This document shows positions 29,361-38,698 of a stretch of DNA of 38,698 bases, in pieces. Location: the NCBI GenBank assembly GCA_009841475.1, contig VXLT01000367.1:1-38698 (forward strand), read 5' to 3'. The notes below the pieces were generated by a model, which searched no databases, had not been told where the DNA came from, and saw only the letters and a program-made list of their open reading frames with translations. Source of the stretch: Gemmatimonadota bacterium. Its GTDB lineage: Bacteria > Gemmatimonadota > Gemmatimonadetes > Longimicrobiales > Gaopeijiaceae. Position numbers and translations under genes: made by a program. Position 1 is the stretch's first letter; each line of letters starts with the position of its first letter.

Positions 29361-31271
29361 ATGTCCGAGTCCGCGTACGCGCGCCGGGAGCGCATCCCGG
29401 TGCGTGTGATGGAGCATGACGAGATCGCCACCGAGGTGGCCGGCCGCATCGCGTCCCTCGTTCGCGCACGCGCAAACGAGGGACGCGATGCCGTTCTCGG
29501 CCTCGCCACCGGCTCCACTCCGGTCGGTGTCTACCGGGAGCTGATCCGCCTCCACCGCGAAGAGGGGCTCGACTTCGCGAACGTCGTCACCTTCAACCTC
29601 GACGAGTACTTCCCCATGCGGCCCGGGAGCATCCACAGCTACCACCGCTACATGCGCGAGAACCTCTTCGACCACGTCAATATCCGGCCCGAGCGCTGCC
29701 ACATCCCCCGGGGCGACCTGCCCGAGGACGAGGTCGAGGCCCACTGCGCGGACTTCGAGCGGCGGATCCGCGAGGCGGGCGGGATCGACCTGCAGCTCCT
29801 GGGGATCGGCCGCAGCGGGCACATCGGGTTCAACGAGCCGGGCTCGGTGCGGGATTCACGCACCCGGCGCCTCTACCTCGACACGGTGACGCGCGCCGAT
29901 GCGGCCGCCGACTTCTTCGGCGAGGAGAACGTGCCGCCCCAGGCGCTCACGATGGGGGTGGCGACGATTCTGGAGGCGCGCGAGGTCGTGCTGCTGGCGA
30001 CCGGCGAGCACAAGGCCGAGATCGTGCTGCGGGCGGTGGAGGGGGAGGTGCACGCCGACGTGGCCGCGACGTTCCTTCAGCAGCACCCGGCGGCGACCGT
30101 CTATCTCGATCCGGCCGCTGCCGCCGACCTCACCCGCATTCGCACCCCGTGGCTGGTCGGCGACGTGGAGTGGACGCCGCACCTGGAGACCGACGCGGTC
30201 ATCTGGCTCAGCCGGCAGACGAACAAGCCGATCCTGCACCTCGCGAACGAGGACTACCGGGCGCACCACCTCGGCTCGCTGGTCGCGCGGCACCGGTCGG
30301 CGGAGCCGCTGAACGGCCAGGTCTTCAACGCGCTCATCTCCAAGATCCGCGGCAAGAGCCGCCTGCCGCGCGGGCAGAAGATCGTCGTCTTCTCGCCGCA
30401 CCCGGACGACGACGTGATCTCGATGGGCGGACTGCTGCGCAAGCTGGTCGAGAACGGCAACCGCGTGACGGTCGCGTATCAGACGTCCGGGAACATCGCG
30501 GTCTTCGACCACGAGGTGCGCCGGTATCTGGACCTGATGAGGCGCGCGTCGCACGTGATCGAGCTGGGCGGTGCGGAGGTCGTGGAGGGGGTGATGGCGT
30601 CGGTGGAGGAGCAGCTGGGTGCCAAGGAGCCGGGCGATGTCGACCCGCCGGTGGTGCAGGACCTGAAGCGGATCATTCGCGAGAGCGAGGCGTCGGCGGC
30701 GATCGAGGCGCTGGGCCTGTCGGCGGACAATGCCCGCTTCCTCGACCTTCCGTTCTACCGGACGGGGATGGTCCGCAAGAATCCGATCTCGGAGGCGGAC
30801 ATCGAGATCGTCGCGGAGCTGCTGGAGGAGTTGCGCCCGTCGATGGTCTTCGCCGCCGGCGATCTCTCCGACCCCCACGGCACGCACCGGATGTGCCTCG
30901 AGGCAGTCGAACGGGCGCTCGCCCGCTACAGCGGTGATCCGCCATTGATCTGGTACTACCGGGGCGCCTGGGTGGAGTGGGGCGTCAGCGAGGCCACGGT
31001 CCTCGTGCCGCTCTCGGAACACGAGATGCGCGCCAAGGTCCAGGCCATCTTCCGCCACGAGTCGCAGAAGGACTCGGCCCCCTTCCCGGGCGCGGACCCG
31101 CGCGAGTTCTGGCAGCGCGTGGTCGACCGCAACCGCGAGACGGCCGACCTGCTGGCGTCGCTGGGCCTGCCGGCGTACCGGGCCATGGAGGCGTATGTGA
31201 CGATGCGTTGCGGAGACCGGGTCGAGGCGCAGGAGATCCCGACGGCGTCGCTGGGGGAGGAGGGGGGGTGA
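29361..31271 (+). CDS. NagB-type glucosamine-6-phosphate deaminase fused to PIG-L deacetylase
   Basis: A two-domain protein of 636 aa. Residues about 15-265 form a NagB sugar-isomerase domain with GLATGSTPVGVYREL, NLDEYF (Asp81) and GRSGHIGFNEPGS (His154, Glu159). It would convert glucosamine-6-phosphate to fructose-6-phosphate and ammonia. Residues about 340-620 form a PIG-L/LmbE zinc deacetylase domain with SPHPDDDVISMGG (His347, Asp349, Asp350) and DPHGTHRMC (His506, His509). Such fusions, often annotated nagB, are known in Bacteroidota. The pairing suggests de-N-acetylation followed by deamination of an amino sugar. It begins 15 bases after the M16 gene and could share its transcript. Confidence 0.92.
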   Translation: MSESAYARRERIPVRVMEHDEIATEVAGRIASLVRARANEGRDAVLGLATGSTPVGVYRELIRLHREEGLDFANVVTFNLDEYFPMRPGSIHSYHRYMRENLFDHVNIRPERCHIPRGDLPEDEVEAHCADFERRIREAGGIDLQLLGIGRSGHIGFNEPGSVRDSRTRRLYLDTVTRADAAADFFGEENVPPQALTMGVATILEAREVVLLATGEHKAEIVLRAVEGEVHADVAATFLQQHPAATVYLDPAAAADLTRIRTPWLVGDVEWTPHLETDAVIWLSRQTNKPILHLANEDYRAHHLGSLVARHRSAEPLNGQVFNALISKIRGKSRLPRGQKIVVFSPHPDDDVISMGGLLRKLVENGNRVTVAYQTSGNIAVFDHEVRRYLDLMRRASHVIELGGAEVVEGVMASVEEQLGAKEPGDVDPPVVQDLKRIIRESEASAAIEALGLSADNARFLDLPFYRTGMVRKNPISEADIEIVAELLEELRPSMVFAAGDLSDPHGTHRMCLEAVERALARYSGDPPLIWYYRGAWVEWGVSEATVLVPLSEHEMRAKVQAIFRHESQKDSAPFPGADPREFWQRVVDRNRETADLLASLGLPAYRAMEAYVTMRCGDRVEAQEIPTASLGEEGG

Positions 31272-31434: not shown

Positions 31435-31599
31435 ATGCACGAATGTCCCGTTTGCGAAGCGGAAGTCCCCATCTCCGAAGATCCCCTCGAGGGAGAACTC
31501 CTCGAGTGCGAGGAGTGCGGCATGGAGCTCGAGATCCTCGCGCTCGATCCCGTCACCCTTGGCGAAGCGCCGGACGCGGAGGAAGACTGGGGTGAGTGA
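31435..31599 (+). CDS. lysW: Amino-group carrier protein LysW
   Basis: LysW is a small acidic zinc protein that carries the growing amino acid on the gamma-carboxyl of its C-terminal glutamate, protecting the amino group. ATG 31435 gives 54 aa. Zinc ligands are Cys4, Cys7, Cys25 and Cys28. The C-terminus is EEDWGE, matching the invariant EDWGE attachment motif. Length and composition closely match Thermus LysW (54 aa). It is the first gene of a lysW-lysX-lysY-amidotransferase-lysZ-lysJ operon. The frame is open further upstream to 31327, but that segment consists of the direct repeats and is not part of known LysW. Confidence 0.95.
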   Translation: MHECPVCEAEVPISEDPLEGELLECEECGMELEILALDPVTLGEAPDAEEDWGE

Positions 31600-31714: not shown

Positions 31715-32551
31715 ATGAGGGTCGGGTTCCTACATTCGCTCATCCGCAAGGACGAGAAGCTGCTGATCGCCGAGCTCAGGAAGCGCGGCGACATGGAGCT
31801 CGTCTTTCTGGACGACCGCCGGCTCGTCTTCGACCTGGCCGCGCGGCCGCCCGTGGACGTGGTGCTGGAGCGGTCGATCAACCACTCGCGCGCCATGCAC
31901 GCGCTGCGCCTCTTCGAGGGGGTCGGGACCGTGTGCGTGAACGCGTACGAGGTCGCGCGCCGGTGCGGCGACAAGATCCTGACGGCCGCCTCGCTGCGCG
32001 ACCACGGTGTGCCGCAGCCGGAAGTGCGGATCGCCTTCACGCCGGAGTCCGCGCTCGACGCGATCGAGGAGCTGGGCTACCCGGCGGTGCTGAAGCCCGC
32101 GGTGGGGTCGTGGGGCCGGCTGCTCTCCAGGGTGAACGACCGCGACGCCGCCGAGACGATCCTGGAGCACAAGGCGATCCTGGGGAGCTACCACCACTCG
32201 ATCTTCTTCGTGCAGAAGTACGTGGAGAAGCGCGGCCGCGACATCCGCAGCTTCGTGGTGGGTGACGAGTGTGTCGCCGCGATCTACCGGACATCGGATC
32301 ACTGGATCACCAACACGGCGCGGGGCGGGCGGGCGAGCGACTGCCCTGTTACCGCCGAGCTCGCGGAGATCTCGCTACGGGCGGCGGAAGCGATGGGTGG
32401 CGGTGTGCTGGCGGTGGACATCTTCGAGAGCGACGGCGGGTTCCTCGTCAACGAGGTCAACTACACAATGGAGTTCCGGAACAGCATCGACGTGACGGGA
32501 GTGAACATTCCCGAGCGGATCGTGTCGTACCTGCGGGGGGTGGTGCGGTGA
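31715..32551 (+). CDS. lysX: LysW-aminoadipate/glutamate ligase LysX
   Basis: An ATP-grasp ligase that attaches the alpha-amino group of 2-aminoadipate (or glutamate in the arginine version) to the C-terminal glutamate of LysW. The 278-aa protein has the ATP-grasp elements [39 protein letters not shown] and [15 protein letters not shown]. The LysX signature [12 protein letters not shown] is also present. The GSWGRLL segment is typical of the LysX/ArgX group. Motifs alone do not tell me which substrate it uses. ATG 31715 has GGAG about 8 bases before it. Confidence 0.93.
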
Positions 32552-32615: not shown

Positions 32616-33728
32616 GTGATCCGCGTCGCGATCGCCGGGGGTTCCGGATACGCGGGCGGTGAGCTGCTGCGCCTGCTTCTGGCACACCCCGACGCCGAAG
32701 TGGCGCAGGTCACGTCCGAGCGCTTCGCGGGGAAGTTCGTGCACCGCACCCATCCCAACCTCCGCGGCCTCACCCGGCTCAAGTACGTGCCCCTCGGCGA
32801 GCTGTCATCCTGCGACCTCCTCTTCTCATGTCTCCCGCATGGCGCGTCCGCGCGCCACATCGACCTGTTCCTCGCCAACGCGGAGCGCGTCATCGACCTC
32901 GGCGCCGACTTCCGCCTCGGCGACGTCGGCGAATACGAGCGCTTCTACGGCGAGCCGCATCCGCGCCCCGGCCTCCTCGGCCGTTTCGTCTACGGGATCC
33001 CGGAGCTGAACCGGGACGCGCTGCGGAGCACCAGCCTGGTGGCATGCGCGGGGTGCAACGCCACCGTCTCCATCCTGGCGCTGCGTCCGCTCTTCCTGGA
33101 GCAGGTGGCGAAGTCGGCCGTGATCGAGGTGAAGGTGGGGTCGAGCGAGGCGGGCAACCGGGCGAGCGAGGCCAGCCATCATCCCGAACGGAGCGGCGCG
33201 ATGCGGTCCTACAAGCCCACCGGGCACCGCCACCTGGCCGAGATCCGGGCCGTGCTGAACGGGAGGGATGCCGTGCAGGCCGGTGCCGCGGTCGCGATCA
33301 CCGCCGGGGGCGCGGCGGCCGGGTCCGAGGCGAGAACGCCCGCTCCGCTGCCCCACATCCACTTCTCGGCCACCGCGGTCGAAATGGTGCGGGGCATCCT
33401 CGCGACCTGCCACGTCTTCCTGCGCGAGGATCTCGACGAGAAGGATCTCTGGAGGATCTACCGGCGCGCCTACGCGGACGAGCCGTTCGTACGGATCGTG
33501 AAGGAGCGCACGGGGATTCACCGCTATCCGGACCCCAAGCTGCTCGCCGGGTCGAACTACTGCGACATCGGCTTCGAGCGGGATCCCCACGCACGGCGGG
33601 TGGTGGTGATGGCCGCGATCGACAACCTGATGAAGGGCGCCGCGGGGCAGGCCGTGCAGGCGTTCAACATCATGCACGGGCTGCCGGAGCGGCGCGGGCT
33701 GGAGTTCCCGGGGCTCCACCCGGCCTGA
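32616..33728 (+). CDS. LysW-aminoadipate/glutamate semialdehyde reductase (LysY/ArgC family)
   Basis: NADPH-dependent reductase of the LysW-bound acyl phosphate. The nucleotide motif AGGSGYAGGELLRLLLAHPD is at the N-terminus. The catalytic cysteine is Cys147 in CAGCNATVS. The LysY-like segments SSEAGNRASEASHHPERSGA and YKPTGHRHLAEI are present and distinguish it from classical ArgC. GTG 32616 is preceded by GGAGCGGAG and gives 370 aa; ATG 32583 is an alternative. Symbols in use are lysY or argC. It follows lysX and precedes the amidotransferase by 32 bases. Confidence 0.92.
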   Translation: MIRVAIAGGSGYAGGELLRLLLAHPDAEVAQVTSERFAGKFVHRTHPNLRGLTRLKYVPLGELSSCDLLFSCLPHGASARHIDLFLANAERVIDLGADFRLGDVGEYERFYGEPHPRPGLLGRFVYGIPELNRDALRSTSLVACAGCNATVSILALRPLFLEQVAKSAVIEVKVGSSEAGNRASEASHHPERSGAMRSYKPTGHRHLAEIRAVLNGRDAVQAGAAVAITAGGAAAGSEARTPAPLPHIHFSATAVEMVRGILATCHVFLREDLDEKDLWRIYRRAYADEPFVRIVKERTGIHRYPDPKLLAGSNYCDIGFERDPHARRVVVMAAIDNLMKGAAGQAVQAFNIMHGLPERRGLEFPGLHPA

Positions 33729-33760: not shown

Positions 33761-34483
33761 GTGTGCCGGATGCTCTGCGTGCGCTCGCGCGGCAACGAGA
33801 CCTTCGAGATGGAGGAGCACCTCGCCGCGCTCGCACGAATCGCGCGGGACAGCAAGGAGTACCAGGGGCACGGCTGGGGATGCGCGTGGCTGGAGAACGC
33901 CGGCGCCGGCGATGACGGCATCCAGGCCCACGGACCCGACATCGCCGGGAGCCCGCAGCGCCGCCTCGCCCGCTGGCGCTTTCACCACGACATCGCGCCG
34001 ATCTGGGTGGACACCGCGCGGCCGGTGAGCCGCACCACGCTGCTGGTCGCCCACGCCCGCAGCGCGTTTCGCGACGAGGGCATCCGGGTCGAGAACAACA
34101 TGCCGTTCGCCGACGGCGAGCGGGTCTTCGCCTTCAACGGCGAACTGCACGGCGTTCGCATCCGGGAGCGGGGGCGAATCGGCGCCGAGAAGGTCTTCAA
34201 CTTCGTGAAGCGGTTCGACCGGGGCGACTTCACGACCGCGCTCACCCGGGGACTCGACGCCATCGAGCGGCGGACCCGCTACATGCGCGCGACGAATCTG
34301 GTCGTCGCCGACCGGGCGCGGCGAGTCCACTTCGCGTCTCGCTTCAGCGAGGATCCAGAGTATTTTCAAATGCACACGGCGATCGTGGACGGCGCCCGCG
34401 TGCTCTGTTCGGAACCGTATCCGGGGACGGCAGCTCGGGTGCGCTGGACTCCCGTCGCAAACGGTCAAACGGGAACGCTCTGA
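33761..34483 (+). CDS. Class II glutamine amidotransferase-like protein
   Basis: A stand-alone glutaminase domain of the N-terminal-nucleophile (GATase type 2, YafJ/EgtC-like) fold. GTG 33761 is followed directly by TGC, so Cys2 (MCRMLCVRSRG) would become the N-terminal nucleophile after Met removal. The family's ENNMPFADGERVFAFNGELH segment (NG dipeptide of the glutamine pocket) and LVAHARSAF are clear. Length is 240 aa, and GAGGGCGAGG lies before the start. It sits inside the LysW operon, 32 bases after lysY and 18 before lysZ. It might supply ammonia to a partner or act as a glutamyl hydrolase. The known LysW pathway has no step that needs it. Confidence 0.85.
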   Translation: MCRMLCVRSRGNETFEMEEHLAALARIARDSKEYQGHGWGCAWLENAGAGDDGIQAHGPDIAGSPQRRLARWRFHHDIAPIWVDTARPVSRTTLLVAHARSAFRDEGIRVENNMPFADGERVFAFNGELHGVRIRERGRIGAEKVFNFVKRFDRGDFTTALTRGLDAIERRTRYMRATNLVVADRARRVHFASRFSEDPEYFQMHTAIVDGARVLCSEPYPGTAARVRWTPVANGQTGTL

Positions 34484-34501: not shown

Positions 34502-35293
34502 ATGCTTCTCATAAAGATCGGCGGGGGCGAGGGCATCAACCTGGAGGGAATCGCGCGCGACGTGTCCGAACTGGACGATCATATCGTGATCGTCCACGGG
34601 GCCAACGCGCTGCGCGACGAACTGGCTGCCCGCCTGGGGGTCGAAAAACAGGTCCTCACCTCGGTGTCCGGCTACACCAGCGTATACTCCGACGAAGCGC
34701 TGATCGACGTCATGCTCATGGCGTACTCGGGGCTGCGCAACAAGCGGATCGTCGAGTTGCTGCACCAGCAGGGGGTCAACGCGGTCGGCCTGACCGGGGC
34801 GGACGGCGCTCTGGTGCGCGGGATGCGCAACAAGGGTATCCGGGTGCGCGAGGGAGGCAAGACGCTGATCAGGCGCGACCTGTCGGGCAAGCCCGTTGCC
34901 GTCAACCGAAAACTGCTCGGATGGCTGCTCGAGACCGGCTTTACGCCGGTCGTGACCTTCCCGCTCATCGATGAACGCAACGTGCTGATCAACACCGAGA
35001 ACGACGACGTCGTCACCCTGCTCGCGCTGGCCCTGCGCCCGGCCTGGGTGATCCAGCTGATCGAGGCGCCGGGGCTGCTTGAGGATGCGGACGACCCGTC
35101 GTCGGTGGTGTCGCTGGTGCCGCCCCAGCAGCTGGCCCGCTGGGAGGACAAGGTCGCCGGCCGCATGAAGCGAAAGCTTAAGGCGATCGGGCAGATTACG
35201 CAGGTGCGCGGCATGAAGGTGCTGATCGCGGACGGGCGCACCGACACGCCGATCTCCGACGCGATGGCGGGCAAGGGGACGGTGATCGGGTGA
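34502..35293 (+). CDS. lysZ: LysW-aminoadipate/glutamate kinase (LysZ/ArgB family)
   Basis: Phosphorylates the side-chain carboxyl of the LysW-bound intermediate. The 263-aa amino-acid-kinase-fold protein begins LLIKIGGGEGINLEGIARDV, the KxGG phosphate-binding motif. It continues with IVIVHGANALRDELAARLG and GVNAVGLTGADGALVRGMRN. KTLIRRDLSGKPVAVN and the ending LIADGRTDTPISDAMAGKGT (then VIG) are like LysZ. ATG 34502 starts 18 bases after the amidotransferase. LysZ and ArgB are one family; LysZ is chosen because of the LysW context. Confidence 0.93.
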   Translation: MLLIKIGGGEGINLEGIARDVSELDDHIVIVHGANALRDELAARLGVEKQVLTSVSGYTSVYSDEALIDVMLMAYSGLRNKRIVELLHQQGVNAVGLTGADGALVRGMRNKGIRVREGGKTLIRRDLSGKPVAVNRKLLGWLLETGFTPVVTFPLIDERNVLINTENDDVVTLLALALRPAWVIQLIEAPGLLEDADDPSSVVSLVPPQQLARWEDKVAGRMKRKLKAIGQITQVRGMKVLIADGRTDTPISDAMAGKGTVIG

Positions 35294-35338: not shown

Positions 35339-36496
35339 ATGACTGAGAGCGCCCGTGACATCGAGCGCCGCTACGCGCTGGAGGTCTTCCCGAAACGCGA
35401 CATCACGCTGGTGCGGGGCAGGGGGGCGGTGGTCTGGGACGACGAGGGGCGCCGCTACATCGATTGCGTGGCCGGGATTGGGGTGGCGAGCGTGGGGCAC
35501 GCCAACGAGGCCGTGGCCGATGCGCTGGCGGCGCAGGCCCGCACGCTGGTCACATGCCCCGGGACCTTCTACAACGATGCGCGCGCCCGGTTGCTGGAGA
35601 AGCTGGCCTCGATCGCGCCGGCGGGGCTGACGCGCGGGTTCCTCTGCAACTCGGGGGCGGAGAGCGTCGAGGCGGCGATCAAGTTCGCGCGGCTGACGAC
35701 AGAGCGGGCGGGGGTCGTGTCCGCGATGCGGGGCTTTCATGGGCGGACGCTGGGCGCGCTCTCGGCGACGTGGAAGAAGGACTATCGCGAGGCCTTCGAG
35801 CCGCTGGTGCCGGGATTCTCCTTCGTGCCCTTCAACAACGCCGCGAAGCTGCGCGCGGCGGTGGGTGCCGATACCGCGGCCGTCGTGCTCGAACCGGTGC
35901 AGGGGGAGGGCGGGATCCGGCCGGCGAGCGCCGAGTTCCTGCGGATGGCACGCGAGGTGTGTGACGAGACCGGGGCTCTGCTGGTCTTCGACGAGATTCA
36001 GACGGGCTTCTGCCGCACGGGGAGGATGTTCGCGTGCGAGCACCACGGCGTCGTCCCCGACATGCTCTGTCTGGCCAAGGCGATCGCGGGGGGCGTGCCG
36101 CTCGGGGCGGTGCTGGCGAACGACCGTATCCGCCCGCCCCCGGGCAAGCACGGGACCACCTTCGGGGGCAATCCGCTCGTCTGCGCAGCGGCGCTGGCGG
36201 CGATCGGGTTCATGGAGCGGGAGGGGCTGGCGGACCGGGCGGAAGCCCTGGGCACGCGTTTTCGTGCGAGCTTCGAGCCTCGGATGCCGGGGCGCGTCCG
36301 GGCGTTGCGCCAGGTGGGGCTCATGATAGGGATCGAGCTCAGGGAGCGGTGCCGACCATACATTAATGCGCTCGCCGAGGCGGGAGTGCTGACGCTGCCG
36401 GCGGGGACGACCGTGATCCGCCTGCTGCCGCCGCTGGTGATCAGAGAGGAGCAGGTGGACGAAGTGGTTGCGGTGCTGGTGCGCGTGCTCGGGTAG
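35339..36496 (+). CDS. lysJ: LysW-lysine/ornithine aminotransferase (LysJ/ArgD family)
   Basis: A class III PLP-dependent aminotransferase that aminates the LysW-bound semialdehyde. The PLP lysine is Lys247 in [20 protein letters not shown]. Other signatures are [54 protein letters not shown] and [20 protein letters not shown]. The 385-aa length is normal for LysJ/ArgD. It is the last gene of the LysW operon; a LysK-type peptidase to release the product is not in the window. Confidence 0.93.
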
Positions 36497-36556
36497 GCGG
36501 GCCGGTGCCAGCCGGAACCTGCGATCTGAAGCCGTGGGCCGGGATAGGGTGCGCCT

Positions 36557-36585
36557 TTGCATGCGGGCGGCCTGCAGCCTAGCTT
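36557..36585 (+). promoter_or_regulatory. Candidate promoter for the His/Glu-rich lipoprotein gene
   Basis: TTGCAT (36557-36562) and TAGCTT (36580-36585) are spaced by 17 bases in the 163-bp gap after lysJ. The second box again has the TAnnTT form. Assigned by eye. Confidence 0.35.
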
Positions 36586-36659
36586 CGGATTCACGTCCGG
36601 GCCCGGGCGCATTCCTTCGTCGGGCCGACACGCCGGAACCGAAACAGGTGGTGAGAGAC

Positions 36660-37268
36660 ATGCAAAGCGTATCCTGTGGATCAGCAGTTTCAGTCATCCT
36701 GCTGTTTGCCCTCTTCTCGATCGCCGGATGCGGAGACCGGTCCGACTCGGAGGGCGAGGGTGCGCTGGAGGCGACCGAGTTGCAACCCGCCGAGGGTACT
36801 GACGTGGCGACCGAGCTGCAGCCCGCCGAGGGTGGGGGAGAGGGTGAGGGTGGCGAGCACGCCGAGGGTGGCGAGGGCGAGCACAACGAAGGCGGCGAGC
36901 ACGGCGAAGAGGGCGAACACGGGGAAGAGGGCGAGCACGGCGAAGAGGGCGAGCACGGGGAAGAGGGCGAGGAGTCCGGCGACTACATCGGTCGCGCCGA
37001 AAGCTGGGACGAGACGCGCCGGGGAATGCGCCTGACGCTCTCCTACGATGCGGAGCGGGATGCCTTCGTGGGTACGGTCGAGAACACCACCGACGCGACT
37101 ATCTGTGCCGTTCGCGTGGAAGTCCACCTCGCCGATGGCCCAGAACTCGGGCCCACAGAGCGGCAGGATGTCGGCGCGGGCGAGTCCGTCTCGGTGGAGC
37201 TGTCGGCGGAGGGGGAGAGCTTCGAGCGCTGGACTGCTCACCCGGAGAGCTCGGCCTGTAGCGCTTGA
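36660..37268 (+). CDS. Unknown lipoprotein with His-Gly-Glu tandem repeats
   Basis: ATG 36660 gives a 202-aa product with signal [20 protein letters not shown] and a lipobox ending at Cys24 (SIAGC). Next comes a highly acidic low-complexity linker with an imperfect repeat (ATELQPAEG twice) and then four copies of GEHGEE. The C-terminal 95 residues look like a small beta-sandwich ([20 protein letters not shown] and [20 protein letters not shown]), resembling FxLYD-type domains. The His/Glu linker could bind divalent metals, but this is inference. I cannot assign a function. The upstream frame to 36468 belongs to no recognisable protein. Confidence 0.8.
36771..36833 (+). repeat. 27-bp imperfect duplication, 36-bp period, in the lipoprotein gene
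   Basis: The stretch encoding ATELQPAEG occurs at 36771-36797 and again at 36807-36833, with 25 of 27 bases identical. The two differences are synonymous, which points to a duplication kept in frame. Confidence 0.7.
36894..36965 (+). repeat. Four 18-bp tandem repeats encoding GEHGEE
   Basis: Units of 18 bp (GGCGAGCACGGCGAAGAG and variants) run at 36894-36911, 36912-36929, 36930-36947 and 36948-36965. Units 1 and 3 are identical; unit 2 differs at two positions and unit 4 at one, all synonymous. The array could vary in copy number between strains without breaking the frame. Confidence 0.85.
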
Positions 37269-37296: not shown

Positions 37297-38646
37297 TCAG
37301 GGTTGCGGCTGGCCGTGGCCGTGCCAGGGGAGCGGGTCTTCCGAGTCCTGCTCCAGCGCGCCGAGGGCAAGTAGCGGGCCCCAGCTCTGGAATCGCTGGC
37401 CGCACCCGCGGCCGGTGCGTGCGTCAAAATACTCGCGGCACATCCCCGTGCGGCGCCGGTCCGCCAGGAACATCTCCGCGCCTTTGCGGGCAAGGTCGGC
37501 GGCGAGGCGTGCGAAGCCGTAGCGGCGGAGGCCCTGCAGGACCAGGTAGTTCATCGGCGGCCATATCGATCCGCGCCAGTAGTGCTGGTCGGCGAAGGCG
37601 GGGTCGTCGCGGGAGATGGTTGGGAGCATCCAGTCGCCCCGGAAGCGATGGGGGTCGCGGAGTGTATCGGCCATGCGGCGGGCGCGGGCGGGCGACGGGA
37701 TGCCCGCGATGAGGGGGAGGAAGTTCGACGCCGCGACCCGGGTGGAGTGGCCGGTGGGGAGTTCATCCAGATAGAGACCGGCCGCCTCCGACCAGAGGAC
37801 TTTGTTGACGGTTGCGGCGAGGTGGCGGTAGTCGGCGGTGAGGCGGTGGGCGGTGGGCTCGTCGCCGAGGATGCGGGCGATGCGGGAGAGGCACTCGAGG
37901 TCGAGCGCGCGGTAGCTGCAAAGGTCGACCGCCGACATTGCGAGGACCTGCCGCTCCGGGTCCCACTCGGCCTCGTCCCAGAGGGGGAGGTCGTCCTGGC
38001 CGGATTCCCAGGCCGCGCGCAGGTGGCCGCTCGCCCCCTCCTCCCAGGGAGGGACCTGGCCGGGGCCGGGGACTAGCGCCGTGTCCGAGCCCCATGACAG
38101 GAGTCCCGGGGTGAGGCCCTCCCGGCGCGGCCGCCCGCCCTTGTCGGCCACCCACCAGTCGCACCAGGCGAGGAGGCCGGGGTAGGCGGCGGCCAGGGCA
38201 TCGAGGTCGGGGTGGAGGTGGTGCAGCTTCAGCGCCGCGAAGGAGCCGACGGGAGGCTGGGAGCGGTCGGGGGTCCCGCCCAGGCGGCTCCGCCAGTTGG
38301 GGACGTTGCCGTTGGAGTAGCGCGACTCGATGCCGGCCAGTAGGGCCGACCAGGCGAGCTCGCCAGAGGCTGTCGCCAGCAGGAGGGCGTTGAAGAAGCT
38401 GTCCCAGCCGAAGACGGTCCAGTCGTCGGGCTCGAGTGGGGCGGGTTCGGGTCGCGGACTGTCGCCCGCTCTATGCGGGTCGTCCGGATCGGTGGGATCC
38501 GGTCCGGAGTCGCGCGGCTTCGGGAAGATCCAGCGGCGGCCGGCGGGGGCGTATAGCCGTCCGGTCTCCGGCTGGAGGAGCACCGTCCACATCAGGTTGT
38601 CGGTGACGCTCTCAACGAGGTCCTGCCGGGCTGTCGAACGGGAGCG

Positions 38647-38649
<3 letters not shown>
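37297..38649 (-). CDS. Glycoside hydrolase, GH63/trehalase-like (5'-truncated)
   Basis: The only gene on the minus strand, convergent with the lipoprotein 28 bp away. The (alpha/alpha)6-barrel family is indicated by DDWTVFGWDSFFNALLLATA, whose GWDS aspartate is the likely general acid. REYFDARTGRGCGQRFQSWG holds the likely general-base glutamate, and HYWRGSIWPPMNYLVLQGLR is also typical. It probably removes glucose or mannose from small oligosaccharides or glycosylglycerates. The first Met in the frame (38590-38592) is not the real start. The frame continues upstream as LVESVTDNL before it and runs into the poly-G, so the N-terminus is missing. A closely fitting family start cannot be given. 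Confidence 0.82.

Positions 38650-38698
<49 letters not shown>

Follow-up and report, generated by a model that had tools for sequence, protein, structure and literature searches.

The window, by which we mean the whole 38,698-nucleotide stretch of DNA analysed here, contains an operon in the order lysW-lysX-lysY-gene in question-lysZ-lysJ (Table 1). The gene in question is separated from lysY by 32 nt and from lysZ by 18 nt, and its second codon specifies a Cys that is intact as an N-terminal nucleophile and invariant in 97 of 97 distinct members of its family; the original prediction of such a gene, set between lysY and lysZ with short gaps, is thus borne out. That the surrounding genes form a LysW pathway is evident from a zinc-ribbon LysW ending in EDWGE that is encoded in one operon with LysX, LysZ, LysY and LysJ, and the LysW of the window could be aligned with the LysW in the PDB from T. 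kodakarensis, Thermus and Sulfolobus. The best model for LysJ is NF042418 (LysJ), which scores 456 bits and stays below its own cut-off of 700. In such pathways, LysX joins the substrate to the γ-carboxyl of the last Glu of LysW.

Table 1. Genes and other features of the window, with positions counted from its first nucleotide
Feature	Position	Strand	Characteristics
Glucosamine-6-phosphate deaminase fused to PIG-L deacetylase domain	29361-31271		PRK02122 type
lysW, amino-group carrier protein	31435-31599	+	54 aa; ATG at 31435; four Zn-ribbon Cys; C-terminus EDWGE; PF21344 54.5 bits, over cut-off; TIGR01206 52.5 against 53.2, just under; NF041070 matched
lysX, ATP-grasp ligase	31715-32551	+	TIGR02144 339 bits, over cut-off; nearest solved relatives Thermus-type LysX 3vpd/1uc8
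lysY/argC, [LysW]-acyl-phosphate reductase	32616-33728	+	TIGR01850 371 bits, over cut-off; probable GTG start at 32616
Gene in question, EgtC-like Ntn hydrolase, proposed [LysW]-γ-glutamyl-amide hydrolase	33761-34483	+	ORF of 240 aa; begins GTG TGC CGG ATG (M-C-R-M); stop TGA; Cys2 nucleophile, Arg100, oxyanion Asn126-Gly127, Phe125, Gly141
lysZ, [LysW]-glutamate/aminoadipate kinase	34502-35293	+	NF010659 226 bits, over cut-off
lysJ/argD, [LysW]-semialdehyde aminotransferase	35339-36496	+	TIGR00707 422 bits, over cut-off
Protein with long Glu/Gly/His repeat	36468-37268		weak FxLYD-domain match
MGH1-like glycoside hydrolase gene	37297-38592	−
Proline-type/G-rich simple repeat run	38600-38698		contig end

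Several features outside the operon were also observed. Throughout the genus, and also in family f7, the deaminase/PIG-L fusion gene keeps its position upstream of lysW. Just downstream of lysJ lies the gene for the repeat-containing protein, and the simple repeat at the contig end, inside or beside the glycoside hydrolase gene, is possibly an assembly edge.

Linkage of the gene to lys operons and mutual exclusion with LysK

The operon membership and linkage of the gene were computed across genomes. The gene is strongly present in 35 of 298 Gemmatimonadota genomes, all 35 with a true LysX, and a strong match to the gene without LysX occurs in none of the 298. In 33 of the 35 genomes, lysY and lysZ flank it directly. 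A wider scan, with one genome per species, gave 261 stretches that encode relatives, the best 80 of which were looked at, and direct flanking by lysY and lysZ was found in 72 of these 80 loci; the gene therefore belongs to the LysW operon, as had been predicted. The best 80 come from Gemmatimonadota, Acidobacteria, Gammaproteobacteria (including SUP05), Bacteroidetes, KSB1, Spirochaetia, Phycisphaerales, Calditrichota, Ignavibacteria, Binatia and others, these group names being bin names from record titles, in which mis-assignment is possible. Because relatives at 37-86% identity occupy the same operon slot, a chance open reading frame is ruled out. The exceptions to direct flanking are mostly contig ends or split operons with all pieces still present: in one genome (G160; L150, L151 and L037) the operon lies in three distant pieces, lysWXY, lysZJ and the hydrolase gene, all of them retained, and in two others (G300 and G302) lysWXY with the gene and lysZJ are at separate places.

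LysK (TIGR01902), an M20 hydrolase, frees the finished product by cutting the γ-glutamyl bond that holds it to LysW. Neither the operon of the window nor its genome gave a TIGR01902 match at E <= 1e-30; the original prediction was right about the operon slot and missed this absence. Because lysK is absent from both operon and genome, what looks like an extra enzyme becomes the probable missing last step.

The same relationship holds across Gemmatimonadota, where 38 of the 298 genomes have a true LysX: 35 carry the gene and no LysK, and three (G013, G198 and G271) carry LysK and not the gene. These three are also the only genomes of the 298 in which LysK scores over its cut-off. Absence of the gene from the operon of close relatives, which the original prediction had asked about, is thus confined among Gemmatimonadota with LysX to the three genomes with lysK. 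In the phylum of Sulfidibacter corallicola, which we take to be an acidobacteriote, 29 of 227 genomes have LysX, and of these, LysK is found in 19 and the gene in eight, no genome combines the two and two genomes lack both. When the two phyla are pooled, the 67 LysX genomes divide into 43 with the gene only, 22 with LysK only, none with both and two with neither (Fisher p = 8e-18, a value that takes no account of kinship). The gene/LysK label takes only about two changes on a 108-row LysX tree, so few replacement events lie behind the exclusion, however many genomes display it.

The two LysX genomes with neither enzyme group with the LysK types on this tree; in one of them (G477) the contig stops just after lysY, and in the other (G420) a GFO/IDH-type gene comes after lysY. 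LysK was over its cut-off in none of 50 more gene-positive genomes from other groups, and the controls of the LysK search (Thermus, Deinobacterium, Haloferax and Sulfolobus) all matched. Where LysK is present, lysK ends the same operon, in the order W-X-Y-Z-J-K (G013, G198, G271, G357 and G472).

Pathway product and the carrier C-terminus

In the genome of the window and its relatives (families f1 and f7) there is no true ArgB and no homocitrate synthase, LysA is present, and ArgG occurs with an adjoining argH. This combination makes ornithine for arginine the likeliest product in the window genome, and the different end product that had been considered is not supported there. A secondary-metabolite cluster was rejected for this genome, as no such genes lie nearby. 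Two other LysX loci were inspected: in a Streptomyces LysX cluster, lysX has an M20 hydrolase as its neighbour and the Ntn hydrolase gene is missing, and a plasmid Thermomicrobium locus has lysX without the other operon genes. ArgG is a weak marker of arginine synthesis, because it is also found in LysX-negative, gene-negative congeners (G138, G192 and G197). In G138 and G192, ArgB is absent as well and argH lies beside argG; these three congeners perhaps have truncated arginine routes, fed by imported ornithine or citrulline.

Other gene-type operons (L106, L125-L127, G319, G349, G352 and G410) have a homocitrate synthase, which in L106, L125, L127, G319, G349, G352 and G410 lies between lysW and lysX, and LysA is absent in G319, G352 and G410. 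Judging from these sequences, we infer that the homocitrate-synthase operons would make lysine. Because the gene occurs in operons with and without homocitrate synthase, one release enzyme would serve both the ornithine and the lysine routes, and this is expected of an enzyme that would read the end of LysW and not the product. LysK likewise serves both the lysine and the arginine routes in Sulfolobus. The LysX signature is NS in all loci, whether or not homocitrate synthase is present, and matches that of Thermus LysX; it does not tell these cases apart. In a set of Gammaproteobacteria that includes SUP05/Thioglobus (G300-G307; L087, L089, L091, L092, L098, L101, L103 and L105), the LysW operon is accompanied by a true ArgB and by LysA, and homocitrate synthase is absent.

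The C-terminus of the carrier itself was also compared between operon types. The three LysW of the PDB (Thermus, Thermococcus and Sulfolobus) end in EDWGE, and 62 of 79 gene-type LysW end in Glu. The other 17 gene-type rows (L038, L039, L040, L087, L090, L091, L100, L105, L109, L113, L116, L118, L126, L127, L129, L171 and L190) read EDWGQ right before the stop codon, compared with 0 of 22 LysK-type rows; among the rows compared, EDWGQ LysW is found only in operons with the Ntn hydrolase gene. The end of LysW switches between Glu and Gln about eight times on the LysX tree, and the association of the Gln tail with the gene has a Fisher p of 0.02, uncorrected for kinship. Since LysX needs a γ-carboxylate, a Gln end must be deamidated before it can be loaded. 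A C-terminal Gln is the simplest γ-glutamyl amide of LysW, which the proposed activity could hydrolyse. Taken alone the association is weak, and it would be supporting evidence for the proposed activity and not proof of it.

These tails bear directly on an alternative in which the enzyme acts only in maturation or editing, that is, it deamidates Gln-ended LysW or strips off wrongly loaded or stalled amino acids, and an unrecognised M20 peptidase releases the product. Such a role would account for the confinement of EDWGQ to gene-type operons, but the gene-type carriers that already end in Glu are so numerous that deamidation cannot be the reason the gene is kept. The active site described below suits any LysW γ-glutamyl amide, and generic M20 hydrolases below the LysK cut-off are present in many gene-positive genomes (the highest score being 116 bits, in G331), and release by one of them is conceivable in principle; the mutual absence of the gene and LysK is nevertheless left unexplained, and we regard this alternative as unlikely. 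The original prediction had offered an editing hydrolase on glutamyl-LysW as one possibility; a hydrolase that acts on a LysW γ-glutamyl bond is close to what we now favour, whereas a role in editing only is disfavoured by the LysK exclusion.

Fold and active site of the gene product

An AlphaFold model of the gene product, made with 22 relatives, has a pLDDT of 88.7. When this predicted fold was compared with the PDB by Foldseek, the 13 best matches were all EgtC (E about 1e-11, TM 0.7), followed by GlmS, GFAT and GPATase. A phmmer search of the protein against the PDB gave no match, and the relation was found by profile and fold searches. No curated amidotransferase model is matched by the gene at its cut-off: GATase_6 gives 19.7 bits against 27, and the EgtC model TIGR03442 gives 23.5 against 218.65. 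'Glutamine amidotransferase' is therefore a fold-level name only, and the class II amidotransferase originally proposed survives in its fold and its Cys2 but not in the curated models. The gene product has no M20 Pfam match, and neither its sequence nor its fold is that of an M20 metallopeptidase.

The residue pattern was computed over the 97 distinct members, and the roles of residues are taken over from GlmS, GPATase and EgtC. Arg100, Asn126 and Gly127 are, like Cys2, invariant in all 97; the Cys after the initiator Met, the Arg, the Asn-Gly oxyanion hole and the fold together place the family among the Ntn, class II amidotransferase-like proteins. Two positions that characterize glutamine-using class II amidotransferases are replaced throughout: Gly141 stands in place of the α-amino-binding Asp of the (S/T)D(S/T)E motif, and Phe125 in place of the HNG His, each in 97 of 97 members. 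Canonical relatives, such as the neighbours in L046-L048, keep both the STDSE Asp and the HNG His. In GlmS and GPATase, this Asp binds the α-amino group of free glutamine. In the last Glu of LysW, the α-carboxylate is free, but the α-nitrogen is in a peptide bond and there is no free α-amino group; for this reason, the Arg should persist and the Asp be lost in an enzyme directed at LysW. At the level of sequence, this is the pattern seen in the gene family, with the Arg putatively serving the carrier's α-carboxylate.

The same residues make it very improbable that the gene encodes a true glutaminase or amidotransferase that feeds the LysW pathway with ammonia or glutamate, both of which the original prediction had considered. 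The class II fold with its Cys2, Arg and Asn-Gly oxyanion hole would be in keeping with such an enzyme, but the residue that would bind the α-amino group of glutamine is Gly and the HNG His is Phe in every member, no synthase domain or ammonia-using partner was found in the operon, the pathway has no ammonia-using step, and the exclusion of LysK would again go unexplained. Least probable of all is a loading enzyme that attaches the substrate amino acid by transamidation to LysW, for instance to Gln-ended LysW, with LysX in another role or as a backup: Ntn amidohydrolases do form transferable γ-glutamyl thioesters and Gln-ended LysW exists, but in nearly all loci with the gene an intact LysX in the same operon already does this step with ATP, and the last step would be without an enzyme.

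Comparison with characterized proteins places the gene product near, and apart from, two groups. EgtC of the ergothioneine pathway (PDB 4zfj, 4zfk and 4zfl) is the nearest solved fold, shares Cys2, the Arg and the Asn-Gly, and hydrolyses a γ-glutamyl amide, the same type of bond proposed for the gene product. In contrast to EgtC, with which it has about 16% identity, the gene product has changed Asp and His positions, its proposed substrate is a protein C-terminus instead of a free γ-glutamyl compound, and its gene lies in a lys operon and has no egt neighbourhood. The class II glutamine amidotransferases (GlmS, GPATase and YafJ-like/GATase_4 proteins) share the fold, Cys2, the α-carboxylate Arg and the oxyanion Asn-Gly, but the gene product differs from them in its Gly for Asp, its FNG for HNG, and its lack of a synthase domain and of a glutamine-dependent partner.

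A divergent copy of the gene, 25% identical, was observed in a homocitrate-synthase operon of genome G410 (L225, 4871-5701, minus strand). It lies after lysJ, which is the lysK position, and still keeps FNG and the Gly for Asp; part of it reads N.

A proposed release step for LysW pathways

We consider it highly probable that the gene encodes a terminal, product-releasing Cys-Ntn [LysW]-γ-glutamyl-amide hydrolase that stands in for LysK. That the gene product would hydrolyse LysW-γ-lysine or LysW-γ-ornithine we infer only from the exclusion of LysK and the active-site pattern. In the mechanism we propose, LysX would join the α-amino group of glutamate (or aminoadipate) to the C-terminal Glu of LysW, and LysZ, LysY and LysJ would convert the loaded carrier to LysW-γ-ornithine (or LysW-γ-lysine). 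Cys2 of the hydrolase would then attack the γ-amide carbonyl of the C-terminal Glu, with Arg100 holding its free α-carboxylate and Asn126 and Gly127 forming the oxyanion hole. Ornithine or lysine would depart, water would hydrolyse the thioester, and LysW-Glu would be freed for the next round. Where the carrier is encoded with a Gln end, the same enzyme may deamidate the C-terminal Gln first.

The proposed enzyme resembles LysK/ArgE (M20, TIGR01902) in its operon membership and in the predicted release of product from the γ-glutamyl bond of LysW, but its fold and chemistry are unrelated, LysK/ArgE being a metal-dependent M20 peptidase and the gene product a Cys N-terminal-nucleophile hydrolase. 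The two also differ in position, lysK standing last in its operon and the gene between lysY and lysZ, and none of the 67 LysX genomes of the two phyla has both. The LysW pathways for lysine in Thermus, for arginine and lysine in Sulfolobus and Thermococcus, and for arginine in Natrinema (PMC10433800) have LysW, LysX, LysZ, LysY, LysJ and the EDWGE tail in common with the operons described here; the gene-type operons differ in that they are without LysK/ArgE and have the Ntn hydrolase instead, and some members have EDWGQ. In the Caldithrix abyssi genome paper, LysWXZYJ and Hcs are described in one locus with no LysK, and the rest of the pathway is left for further analysis (PMC5317091). A paper on marine Gemmatimonadota notes LysW-glutamate ornithine synthesis and does not discuss the release step. 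Our search of the literature on LysW, with subscription journals mostly outside its reach, found no link to a glutamine amidotransferase save in one unrelated rumen review. What would be new is a LysW pathway in which release falls to an enzyme unrelated to LysK, although earlier notice of it is possible.

A broader scenario is put forward tentatively, as we think it more doubtful than probable. One enzyme family may both mature EDWGQ to EDWGE and release ornithine or lysine, and in many bacterial phyla it may be the usual enzyme for release from LysW, having replaced LysK or been replaced by it; the operon of SUP05-like Gammaproteobacteria, in which full ArgB and LysA routes are kept, might then make a third diamino acid.

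If the proposed function is correct, the gap that arginine or lysine synthesis now shows at its last step would be closed in many uncultured Gemmatimonadota and their relatives, groups whose genomes are now scored as incomplete because LysK is missing. It would also be a clean non-orthologous replacement, in which a metallopeptidase gives way to a cysteine Ntn hydrolase that acts on the same protein-bound substrate, and a further prediction is that a carrier protein encoded with a C-terminal Gln needs deamidation before use.
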